DNA of 34,861 bases. Origin: Gemmatimonadota bacterium. Lineage in GTDB: Bacteria; Gemmatimonadota; Gemmatimonadetes; Gemmatimonadales; Gemmatimonadaceae. A model generated the notes under the pieces. The model was not told the origin of the DNA. It saw nothing but the letters and a program-made list of their open reading frames with translations, and did not search any database. Positions 19,163 to 22,593 of this stretch are shown here, one piece after another (position 1 is the first letter of the stretch; every line of letters starts with the position of its first letter). The position numbers were made by a program, and so were the translations under genes. The stretch is from assembly GCA_027622655.1 (NCBI GenBank), contig JAQBYI010000033.1:1-34861 (forward strand), given 5' to 3'.

Positions 19163-19975
19163 ATGCGCGCGCCGACACGGTTGATGACCGCCGAGGGCGG
19201 GCCCACGGTTGCTGTCTACACGTCGCGCGAGCGAACCCGCGATCTGCTGAAGCACGCCTTCCCGCGCCGCCGCGGGCAGCTGATTTTCTGTCGCTCGGCA
19301 GCCGAGGTCACCCGACAGATGGGTCGCATGCTCGTCGACATTGTCGTCGTTGACGTGGCAGCGCCTACAGAGGACACATGGCTCGCCGCGGCGTGCGCCC
19401 GGGAGTATCCCTGCACGCCTTTCTTCGGTATCTCGGCGCTTCGACTCGGTGACGCGCCCACGATCTCGAGGTGCGCCGCGCTCGATTTCGCCGACATCTT
19501 CAGCGAAGGGATCGACGACGGTTCGCTCCGGGAACTGGTCGTGCCGGCGTCGTTCACCATCCGGTTTGCGGCTACACTCGGCCCGGCGAACGGACCACTG
19601 GGTCTTGTGTCGCCCGTTCAGCAAAACGCATGGCGCTGGATCGTGGGGCGCGGTGGGCGGCCAGTCCGCACCGATCTCCTCGCAGACGCGCTCGGTGTTA
19701 CGCGTGAGCACCTTAGCCGGAGCTTTTCCGCTTCCGGCGGGCCAAACCTCAAGCGCGTGATCGACCTCGTGCGGGTTATTGCCGCTGCCGAACTCGCAAA
19801 AAGCCCCGGATACGACTCGGCCGACGTAGCGCGCGTGTTGCAATACGCTTCCGCGTCGCACCTTACCAGCACGGCGCAGCGCGTCTGCGGCACGCGGTCC
19901 GCTTCACTCGCAAGGCTCCGCACGGGCGACATCATCGAGCGGTTCCAACAGGGACGAGGGCGGAGCAGGGGCTAG
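19163..19975 (+). CDS. AraC-type transcriptional regulator with receiver-like N-terminus
   Basis: Of 270 residues, the C-terminal part (about 150-262) has the two helix-turn-helix elements of AraC-family regulators (Asp-Ala-Leu-Gly-Val-Thr-Arg-Glu-His-Leu-Ser-Arg, then Ser-Ala-Asp-Val-Ala-Arg-Val-Leu-Gln-Tyr). The N-terminal 120 residues look like a response-regulator receiver: beta strand Val-Ala-Val-Tyr-Thr, then Val-Asp-Ile-Val-Val-Val-Asp64. The paired acidic residues after strand 1 and the conserved Lys are missing, so it may be a pseudo-receiver. An ATG at 19184 is an alternative start. It begins 10 bases after the Nudix stop, suggesting one operon with mlaF. Target genes are unknown. 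Confidence 0.72.
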   Translation: MRAPTRLMTAEGGPTVAVYTSRERTRDLLKHAFPRRRGQLIFCRSAAEVTRQMGRMLVDIVVVDVAAPTEDTWLAAACAREYPCTPFFGISALRLGDAPTISRCAALDFADIFSEGIDDGSLRELVVPASFTIRFAATLGPANGPLGLVSPVQQNAWRWIVGRGGRPVRTDLLADALGVTREHLSRSFSASGGPNLKRVIDLVRVIAAAELAKSPGYDSADVARVLQYASASHLTSTAQRVCGTRSASLARLRTGDIIERFQQGRGRSRG

Positions 19976-19996: not shown

Positions 19997-20075
19997 TCAT
20001 CCGGCGCTTGCGGTCTATTCGCGGCGAGCGCGGTTCAGCCAAGTTCATCCGGCGCTTGCGGTCTATTCGCGGCGA
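19997..20075. repeat. Two 31-bp direct repeats, 48-bp period
   Basis: Identical 31-base copies at 19997-20027 and 20045-20075 are separated by 17 unrelated bases; a short third piece (TTCATCCG) follows at 20083. They contain the TCATCCG word also found in the inverted repeats around the adjacent nuclease gene, so they probably belong to the same repeat family. Confidence 0.95.
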
Positions 20076-20107
20076 TCTCGATTCATCCGTTCCCAACGCG
20101 GTCACGG

Positions 20108-20566
20108 TTAGCCGCGGCGCAAGTGTCTCGGCTCTACCGGGGAATCGGATGAACGCGGATGATCCGGATCCTGCGAATCCGTTTTGTTTCGCATCGAGAC
20201 CAGCCGGTAGAACCGTGGTTCCGGACCGAAGTGGAGGAGGAGTCCAACACGGAGGCTCGTCCCACGCAGGTAGTTGAATAGCTGGCGCTGCGCTGTCGGA
20301 GCGAGGACGGGCGTCGATTTGACCTCAAACACCACCGCGCCGCCGACGATCAGGTCCACGCGCTGAAAGCCCACCTCTTCGCCCTTGTACTCAACCCGGA
20401 TGGCGAACTCGCGCGCGACAACGTGTCCCCGTGCTCGCAGTTCCCGCTCCAACGCCGCCGAGTAGATGCTCTCCAGAAACCCGAACCCGAGCGTGTTGTA
20501 CACCTCGTAGAACGCACCGATGATTGAGTGCGTGAGTTCGCGTTCGATGAGCTCTTCGCGGGCCAT
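20108..20566 (-). CDS. GxxExxY protein, PD-(D/E)XK nuclease-like
   Basis: The 152-residue product has the defining motif Gly29-Phe-Leu-Glu32-Ser-Ile-Tyr35. A PD-(D/E)XK-type core follows, with Asp71 and Glu81-Val-Lys83 separated by a hydrophobic strand, matching the family domain databases call GxxExxY or PDDEXK_3. A DNA- or RNA-cleaving role is expected from the fold but not proven for the family. The ATG at 20566 starts the conserved Glu-Leu-Thr...Ile-Gly-Ala-Phe-Tyr-Glu-Val-Tyr helix; the frame opens to 20590. The last 20 residues are encoded inside one arm of a 60-bp inverted repeat and are low-complexity, as if the repeat had supplied the stop codon. The gene stands alone among repeats. 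Confidence 0.87.
   Translation of the reverse strand: MAREELIERELTHSIIGAFYEVYNTLGFGFLESIYSAALERELRARGHVVAREFAIRVEYKGEEVGFQRVDLIVGGAVVFEVKSTPVLAPTAQRQLFNYLRGTSLRVGLLLHFGPEPRFYRLVSMRNKTDSQDPDHPRSSDSPVEPRHLRRG
20116..20175. repeat. 60-bp inverted repeat, left arm
   Basis: Base-by-base comparison with the reverse complement of 20643-20702 gives 51 of 60 identities with no gaps. The central word CGGATGAACGCGGA is perfect in both arms. This arm is translated as the C-terminal tail of the GxxExxY gene. Confidence 0.9.
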
Positions 20567-20642
20567 CGCCAAACATCCAGATCCCGCCACCCCGCGCCGT
20601 CATCATTCCCCCGCACCCCCAATCAAAAGCAGTTGCAGTATC

Positions 20643-20702
20643 CGCAGTATCCGTGCCTTCCGCGTTCATCCGCTTCCCCGTTAGAGCCGAGACACCGGCG
20701 CC
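20643..20702. repeat. 60-bp inverted repeat, right arm
   Basis: Mirror copy of 20116-20175, 77 bases upstream of the GxxExxY start codon, so it also occupies the probable promoter region. Next to it, toward the gene, lie further copies of a 9-base TCCGCAGTA-like unit. Confidence 0.9.
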
Positions 20703-20725
20703 ACGGCCCACTATGACTGTGACAC

Positions 20726-20830
20726 GAACCAGGTGCGAACCAGGTGCGAACCAGGTGCGAACCAGGTGCGAACCAGGTGCGAACCAGGTGCGAACCACGG
20801 GTGCGAACCACAGGTGCGAACCACAGGTGC
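20726..20830. repeat. Minisatellite: six 11-bp and three 13-bp units
   Basis: Six perfect GAACCAGGTGC copies (20726-20791) are followed by three 13-base derivatives (20792-20830) that carry two extra bases. It lies about 190 bases upstream of atpA. There are no spacers, so it is not a CRISPR array. Confidence 0.97.
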
Positions 20831-20955
20831 GAACCACGGTGAACCGCTGATGCGACCCACAATGCGAGCAGGCTCCGCGAACCGAGTGTCGAATCCGCCG
20901 TTCGTACTGGCGGTGTTCCCCGCGAAGCGTCACTCTTGATCTTGCGTACGAATGT

Positions 20956-20977
20956 GCTTGTGATATTTTTCACAAGC
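20956..20977. promoter_or_regulatory. Perfect 7-bp inverted repeat in the atp upstream region
   Basis: GCTTGTG (20956-20962) and CACAAGC (20971-20977) flank an AT-only eight-base centre that includes a possible -10-like GATATT (20962-20967). TTGATC (20936) and TTGCGT (20942) are the nearest -35-like words but neither has ideal spacing. It could be an operator or a leader hairpin of the atp operon. Confidence 0.4.
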
Positions 20978-21021: not shown

Positions 21022-22593
21022 ATGGCAACATCGACGTCGCTCCGCCCCGGTGAAATCAAGGACATTCTCCTTCGAGAAATCGAAGCCGCCGACCTGAATT
21101 CACTCGACGTTGAGGAAGTCGGTTCCGTCCTGGAAGTGAAAGACGGTATCGCGCGTATTTATGGCCTCCAGAAGGCCATGGCTGGCGAGATGCTCGAGGT
21201 CACGAGCTCGGAGACCGGCGCAAAGATTACGGCGCTCGCGCTCAACCTTGAAGAAGACAACATCGGCTCGGTTGTACTCGGCGACTACCTCCAGCTGAAG
21301 GAAGGCGACGAAGTACGCCGCACCGGACGTGTGCTCGAGGTTCCCGTTGGTCCGGAGATGATCGGCCGCGTCGTTGACGCACTCGGCCGCCCCATCGACG
21401 GCGTTGGACCCATCAATACCGAGCACACCCGCAAGGTCGAGAGCGAGGCGCCCGGCATTATCGTGCGCTCGCCGGTGAAAGAGCCGCTGCAGACCGGCAT
21501 CAAGGCCATCGATTCGATGATCCCGATCGGCCGCGGTCAGCGCGAGCTCATCATCGGCGATCGCGGCACGGGAAAGACGGCAATCGCCGTCGATACCATC
21601 ATCAATCAAAAGGGCGCCGGCGTCATCTGCGTGTACGTCGCCATCGGACAGAAGGCGTCGACGGTTGCCAGCGTGGTCGAGCGCCTCAAGGCGACTGGCG
21701 CGATGGAGTACACGATTGTCGTCGCTGCCACCGCGTCCGATCCGGCGCCAATGCAGTACATCGCGCCGTACTCCGGCGCGGCGATGGCCGAGTACTTCAT
21801 GTACAACGAAGGCAAAGCCACGCTCGCGGTGTACGACGATCTTTCCAAGCAGGCTGCGGCGTACCGCCAGCTCTCGCTCGTTCTGCGTCGTCCGCCGGGC
21901 CGCGAAGCGTTCCCCGGCGACGTGTTCTATCTCCACTCACGCCTCCTCGAGCGCGCAGCCAAGCTGAGCAACGATCCGTCTGTGGTGGACGGCAAGACGA
22001 TCCTCAAGGCGGGCGGTTCGATGACTGCGCTACCGATCATCGAAACGCAGGCCGGTGACGTGTCGGCGTACATCCCGACCAACGTCATTTCGATCACCGA
22101 CGGTCAGATCTTTCTCGAGAGCGATCTCTTCTACTCGGGCGTGCGACCGGCGGTAAACGTCGGAATATCGGTGAGTCGTGTTGGTGGCGCCGCGCAGACG
22201 AAGGCGATGAAGGGTGTCGCCGGCCGCCTCCGCCTCGATCTGGCGCAGTATCGCGAACTCGAAGCGTTCTCCGCCTTTGCCAGCGATCTCGACGCAGCCA
22301 CGAAGAAGCAGCTCGAGCGCGGCGCCCGAACGGTTGAAATTCTCAAGCAGGGCCAGTACGAGCCGATGGCCTTCGAGTCGCAGGCGATGATCATTTTCGC
22401 CGTGACCAACGGATTCATCGACGATATCGGCACCAGCAAGGTGCGCGATTGGGAAAAGGGCTTCCACGAGTTCATGAAGACCAGCTTCCCGCAGGTGGGC
22501 GACAAGATTCGCAGCGAAAAGGCGATCTCGAAGGAGACCGAGGCCGACCTGCGCCGCGGCATCGACGCATACAAGAAGCTGGCGGCGAAATAG
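21022..22593 (+). CDS. atpA: F1Fo ATP synthase subunit alpha
   Basis: The 523-residue alpha subunit of the F1 headpiece carries the non-catalytic nucleotide sites. It shows the N-terminal segment that binds the stator, Walker A Gly-Asp-Arg-Gly-Thr-Gly-Lys-Thr (near 170-177), the Pro-Tyr-Ser-Gly-Ala region, and the signature Ser-Val-x-Arg-Val-Gly-Gly-Ala-Ala-Gln-Thr. The ATG at 21022 is preceded by AAGGAA. It leads the atpA-atpG-atpD-atpC cluster; unlike the usual order, no atpH (delta) or Fo genes lie upstream. Confidence 0.98.

Follow-up and report, generated by a model that had tools for sequence, protein, structure and literature searches.

The GxxExxY nuclease gene of the window and the two inverted arms that enclose it probably belong to a system of dispersed hairpin repeats, of which they are the form that carries the gene, and in which the nuclease would use its own flanking arms as recognition sites. 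Here the window is the whole stretch of DNA that was analysed, 34,861 nucleotides from the genome of a Gemmatimonadota bacterium (G000; 3.14 Mb). Matched arms of this kind flank homologous genes in many phyla, hairpins built from the same type of sequence are dispersed through genomes at sites without the gene, and the dispersed repeats are associated with presence of the nuclease.

A sequence-only reading of the window had given the two arms 51 matches in 60 ungapped positions, a count that is exact for the cores listed in Table 1; the best other 60-nucleotide inverted repeat in the window has fewer than 46 matches. The inverted repeat reaches 78 nucleotides on each side, with 81% complementarity. 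The left arm contains the heptamer-like units CGCGGAT, TCCGGAT and TGCGAAT, spaced 9 bp, and is a degenerate example of the general arm style found at other loci (see below). The same reading held that the left arm encodes the C-terminal tail of the protein, as is indeed the case: the family domain stops near residue 123 of 160, and the tail lies outside it. The other arm, which had been said to overlap the promoter region, lies about 50-75 nucleotides before the start codon; a promoter scan, of a type that may not suit this phylum, found no sigma-70-type site there. Terminator-like sites in the window overlap the inner part of each arm. No recognised transposase had been noticed, and between the arms we likewise find the PD-(D/E)XK gene alone.

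Table 1. Features of the GxxExxY locus in the window, and loci of the sphingomonad comparison
Feature	Position	Strand	Remarks
Left inverted-repeat arm	20101..20178 (core 20116-20175)	+	Overlaps 3' end of gene
Right inverted-repeat arm	20640..20717 (core 20643-20702)	-	Upstream of GxxExxY gene
GxxExxY PD-(D/E)XK nuclease gene (predicted)	20108..20566	-	152 aa from ATG at 20566, stop at 20108
Alternative start GTG	20590	-	Gives GxxExxY protein of 160 aa
Signature motif G-F-L-E-S-I-Y (GxxExxY)	20462..20482	-	
Predicted catalytic core D71...E81-x-K83	20318..20356	-	Alignment conservation
Left neighbour, helix-turn-helix gene	19163..19975	+	Synteny in relatives; marks empty site
Right neighbour, atpA (ATP synthase F1 alpha)	21022..22593	+	Synteny in relatives; marks empty site
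Sphingomonad fabD-fabG loci	L384:478-2642, L180, L183, L184, L188, L207, L210, L223, L227, L238, L243		

Three further features lie close to the unit. Adjoining the left arm on its left, a 44-bp stretch (TCATCCGGCGCTTGCGGTCTATTCGCGGCGA...) occurs twice in direct orientation at 48-bp spacing (19997-20088). Between the right arm and atpA there is a tandem array (20725-20850) in which a unit of 11-13 bp, GAACCAGGTGC or a variant of it, recurs about ten times; the array was not seen in relatives. Upstream of atpA, at 20956-20977, stands GCTTGTGATATTTTTCACAAGC, a near-perfect palindrome that resembles a CRP/FNR-type box (TTGTGA-N6-TCACAA) and precedes atpA in nearly all relatives read, some outgroups of the same order included.

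By family score, signature motif and catalytic residues, the window protein is a clear member of the GxxExxY family, for which nuclease activity is predicted. It scores 107.6 bits against TIGR04256 (cut-off 35) and 114.2 bits against PF13366 (PDDEXK_3; cut-off 22), and it carries the signature as GFLESIY together with D71, E81 and K83; the corresponding D, E and K columns are 98-100% conserved among 194 aligned proteins. A confident AlphaFold model (mean pLDDT 90) points to a PD-(D/E)XK fold of Cas4 type. The closest solved fold is that of Cas4 SSO0001 (best Foldseek match 4ic1, E = 7.9e-5; VIA aligns 99 residues to 4ic1 at 4.3 A, Z = 10.1), and the archaeal Holliday-junction resolvase Hjc (1gef) also aligns with the model (Z = 7.3). 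Homology to solved structures was not found by sequence at E up to 1, and there are no cysteines among the conserved columns of 72 aligned GxxExxY proteins.

The source genome has two GxxExxY genes besides that of the window, and all three lie between inverted repeats whose sequence differs from gene to gene. To look for arms around homologues elsewhere, we aligned the left flank of each locus with the reverse complement of its right flank, and found matched arms across phyla. Within the phylum, 54 of 112 loci have matching arms at a score of at least 34, a level that displaced windows reach in 0.5% of cases and mismatched pairs of flanks in 0.9%; at about half of the 112 loci no arms are detectable. 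A second set of 71 loci was drawn from Acidobacteria, Cyanobacteria, Proteobacteria, Bacteroidetes, Planctomycetes, Chloroflexi, Verrucomicrobia and other phyla. Here 56 loci have arms at a score of at least 30 and 37 at a score of at least 40; displaced windows attain these two scores in 1.1% and 0.2% of cases, and mismatched pairs in 8.8% and 2.1%, the mismatched pairs standing higher because arms have a style in common from locus to locus. In this style TTCACC is followed by CRCRGAG heptamers (variants include CGCAAAG and CACGGAT) with one to three bases between them, at a spacing of 8-10 bp; the arms read toward the gene start, and their reverse complement follows the stop. The autocorrelation of 194 arms has its peak at lag 9. 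By inspection, the arm ends are TTGAACC or TTCACC, and GTCTCGGC in the window family.

The arms are also dispersed without the gene. Searches by pattern and by BLAST, on which the copy counts rest, found about ten gene-less copies in the source genome, so the arms are not unique to the window locus; among these copies are inverted pairs of 100-150 bp (C96, C14 and C114) and single arms (C31 and C76). Gene-less copies are mostly hairpins, often of about 70-150 bp, and there are up to hundreds of them per genome. In Gemmatirosa kalamazoonensis (G103), with 223 motif matches, they take the form of TTGAACCGCAGAGGACGCAGAGGACGCAGAGGA, a short loop and then the reverse complement. As single-stranded DNA, gene-less hairpins fold far better than their shuffles (z from -5.7 to -14). 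Some hairpins in G103 are found inside open reading frames that stay open (L338:450-521 and L336:250-321), with example host genes that are gamma-glutamyltransferase-like and ArsA-like on our reading of the translations, and one hairpin family is often found inside the loop of another. At nine loci of this genome (L319, L321, L323, L325, L326, L329, L330, L331 and L334), CACRGAG-type hairpins sit in the loops of CGCAGAG-type hairpins, like nested insertions. As to how the two arms come to match, copying within one hairpin was considered and dropped, as the two arms of a copy do not have the same spacers between their heptamers.

We surveyed 200 genomes of the phylum, of which 61 have a GxxExxY gene and 139 do not, with a strict three-heptamer pattern that misses the window's own arm family. 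The pattern occurs 790 times in carriers, as against 26 times in non-carriers. Seven or more copies are present in 12 of the 61 carriers and in none of the 139 non-carriers (P = 2.9e-7 by Fisher test, genome relatedness ignored), although for one of these 12 repeat-rich carriers, G073, the count is doubtful, as the reversed control pattern also matches 53 times. No exact match to the strict motif was found in 38 of the 61 carriers. There is also an exception among the non-carriers, G074, in which no gene was detected and six motif matches are scattered over five places. Of 25 genomes, G000 and its sister G008 alone have the gene at the window locus, and it is in just these two that the arm family of the window itself was found. 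Outside the phylum, the motif is present in 30 of 42 genomes that carry the nuclease, and the reversed-pattern control matches two of the 42. Chance is thus rejected as the source of the flanking arms and of the co-occurrence of gene and repeats, by the flank controls and the Fisher test respectively. Two genomes of the survey are of separate interest: several short GxxExxY remnants lie on several contigs of G049, a picture that looks like decay of the family in this genome, and in G175, where the reversed pattern matches 143 times and the forward one never, there may be a heptamer-like repeat family of another kind.

Loci with similar nucleases tend to have similar arms. Arms are shared by fewer than 1% of pairs whose nucleases are below 45% identical, by 37% of pairs at 60-70% identity and by 59% of pairs above 70%, and the correlation between arms and nucleases was reached by none of 999 permutations. 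In eleven sphingomonads a GxxExxY gene lies between fabD and fabG, and its arms adjoin the start and stop codons (loci in Table 1); at this locus the two arms of a species are closer to each other than to the arms of other species (1 of 9999 permutations). These observations bear on the suggestion that the arms are passive, i.e. that the repeats are terminators, attenuators or mRNA-stabilising hairpins which occur around many genes, and that GxxExxY genes are merely placed between them. The terminator-like sites over the inner arms of the window would fit such a suggestion, as would the position of the gene-less hairpins C96 and C14 between genes and the strong folding of such hairpins. We nevertheless consider it decidedly improbable, as displaced windows of the same loci almost never show arms, the repeats depend on presence of the nuclease, and the sequence of the arms follows that of the nuclease.

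The gene order nudix, helix-turn-helix gene, atpA is conserved in the genus of the source organism. Whereas G000 and G008 have the unit between the helix-turn-helix gene and atpA, the gap between these two genes is short and without the unit in six relatives (G001, G003, G004, G005, G007 and G011) and likewise in outgroups of the same order; the insertion is therefore derived. G003 and G004 lack the gene-less hairpin C96 in the corresponding gap, and relatives thus hold empty sites for the gene-bearing unit and for one gene-less hairpin. At the C14 site, G000, G008 and G003 each have a hairpin, but of different sequence families. No target-site duplication is visible in the copies read, and the flanks at empty sites are too diverged to place the ends to the base.

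Some loci in the window's genus have been inherited in place, with both arms changed together (e.g. L009 and L039). The gene is mostly inherited at fixed loci, and so is not an actively jumping unit: it tends to stay put over long times, the arms change as a pair and the gene-less hairpins scatter. Of the two readings offered from the window sequence, a mobile or a repeat-propagating element, the second is thus the better supported.

A nuclease that serves its host would be a different explanation of the same loci. Under it, repair, recombination or defence would use the hairpins as sites of recognition or protection, the nuclease would keep the arms matched through selection, and the repeats would spread by slippage in replication or by ordinary recombination, and not by means of the nuclease. 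Several observations speak for it: the gene is inherited in fixed places, such as that between fabD and fabG, the arms co-vary in cis, the closest fold is Cas4, and archaeal Holliday-junction resolvases align as well. Even so, we judge it unlikely: hairpins differ at the same site between sister species and appear at new sites, which include open frames and the loops of other hairpins, and there is no convincing PADLOC match to a defence system. A known defence system was rejected on the last of these grounds, since of three proteins tested with PADLOC one had a weak type IIG score and another a marginal one. Two other origins were considered and set aside as unsupported: phage origin, for which a search of 50,697 phage records gave no match and PHROG scores were no more than weak, and plasmid-borne spread, with only eight distant plasmid matches, none of them predicted to be mobilisable.

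For the dispersed hairpin-repeat system that we favour, we infer that the nuclease itself does the moving. It would bind its arms, probably as a cruciform or a single-stranded hairpin, and would nick or cut at the arm ends; the released or repair-copied hairpin would then be joined elsewhere in the genome. Gene-less hairpins would be moved in trans, and the gene would stay at its locus and keep its matched pair of arms in cis. More broadly, the evidence inclines us, by a small degree, to regard GxxExxY nucleases as the driving force behind a second class of bacterial hairpin repeats, one that does not depend on RAYTs, is present in many phyla and accounts for the widespread CACAGAGGACACAGAG-type sequences.

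The proposal links a very common nuclease family of unknown function to very common and unexplained dispersed repeats of bacteria, and both gain a testable role. If it is true, there exists a repeat-spreading machinery that is built on a restriction-like nuclease fold and not on a transposase, and a PD-(D/E)XK nuclease alone can mobilise or copy a hairpin without a DDE, HUH or serine/tyrosine recombinase. As each set of arms matches its own nuclease, the arms are ready-made substrates for biochemistry.

In TIGR04256 and PF13366 the family is named without a function, and we found no published tie between it and flanking or dispersed hairpins in the open-access literature, to which the search was confined. 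Cas4 and Hjc are among the closest solved folds to the GxxExxY model; however, Cas4 binds an iron-sulphur cluster through four cysteines, whereas GxxExxY proteins have no conserved cysteines and are shorter, and the window locus has no Cas context. Insertion sequences and MITEs share with the GxxExxY units the terminal inverted repeats around one gene, the gene-less derivatives elsewhere and the empty sites in relatives, but the GxxExxY units have no DDE or other recognised transposase inside, and each unit has a repeat sequence of its own.

The layout of GxxExxY units mirrors that of REPINs and RAYTs (PMC3116915). In both systems a gene at a fixed locus (TnpA-REP, or RAYT, in the case of REP/REPIN) has a short repeat in inverted orientation on its two sides, inverted doublets that lack the gene and form hairpins are numerous and dispersed, and the repeat family is specific to the enzyme. 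Most REPs are sorted by GTAG or CGTC tags. Given the mirrored layout, and since some repeat-rich genomes do have Y1 transposases, it might be supposed that a RAYT or an IS200-type Y1 transposase moves the hairpins, and that GxxExxY genes were inserted into such repeats or are carried by them as cargo. This is very improbable: by inspection, neither a GTAG nor a CGTC start tag is present at the ends of GxxExxY arms, and there is no match to the Y1 transposase family (PF01797) in nine repeat-rich genomes (G016, G054, G096, G097, G103, G162, G203, G212 and G223), nor in G000 and its sister G008, so that a RAYT cannot be the mover there. The resemblance to REPIN/RAYT is therefore one of function and not of membership. 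The RAYT is a Y1 HUH transposase, whereas the GxxExxY protein is a predicted PD-(D/E)XK nuclease, and the arms of the latter are strings of spaced CRCRGAG-like heptamers. The system around GxxExxY genes is thus best read as functionally like RAYT/REPIN, with an enzyme of unrelated fold acting on a repeat unrelated to REP.
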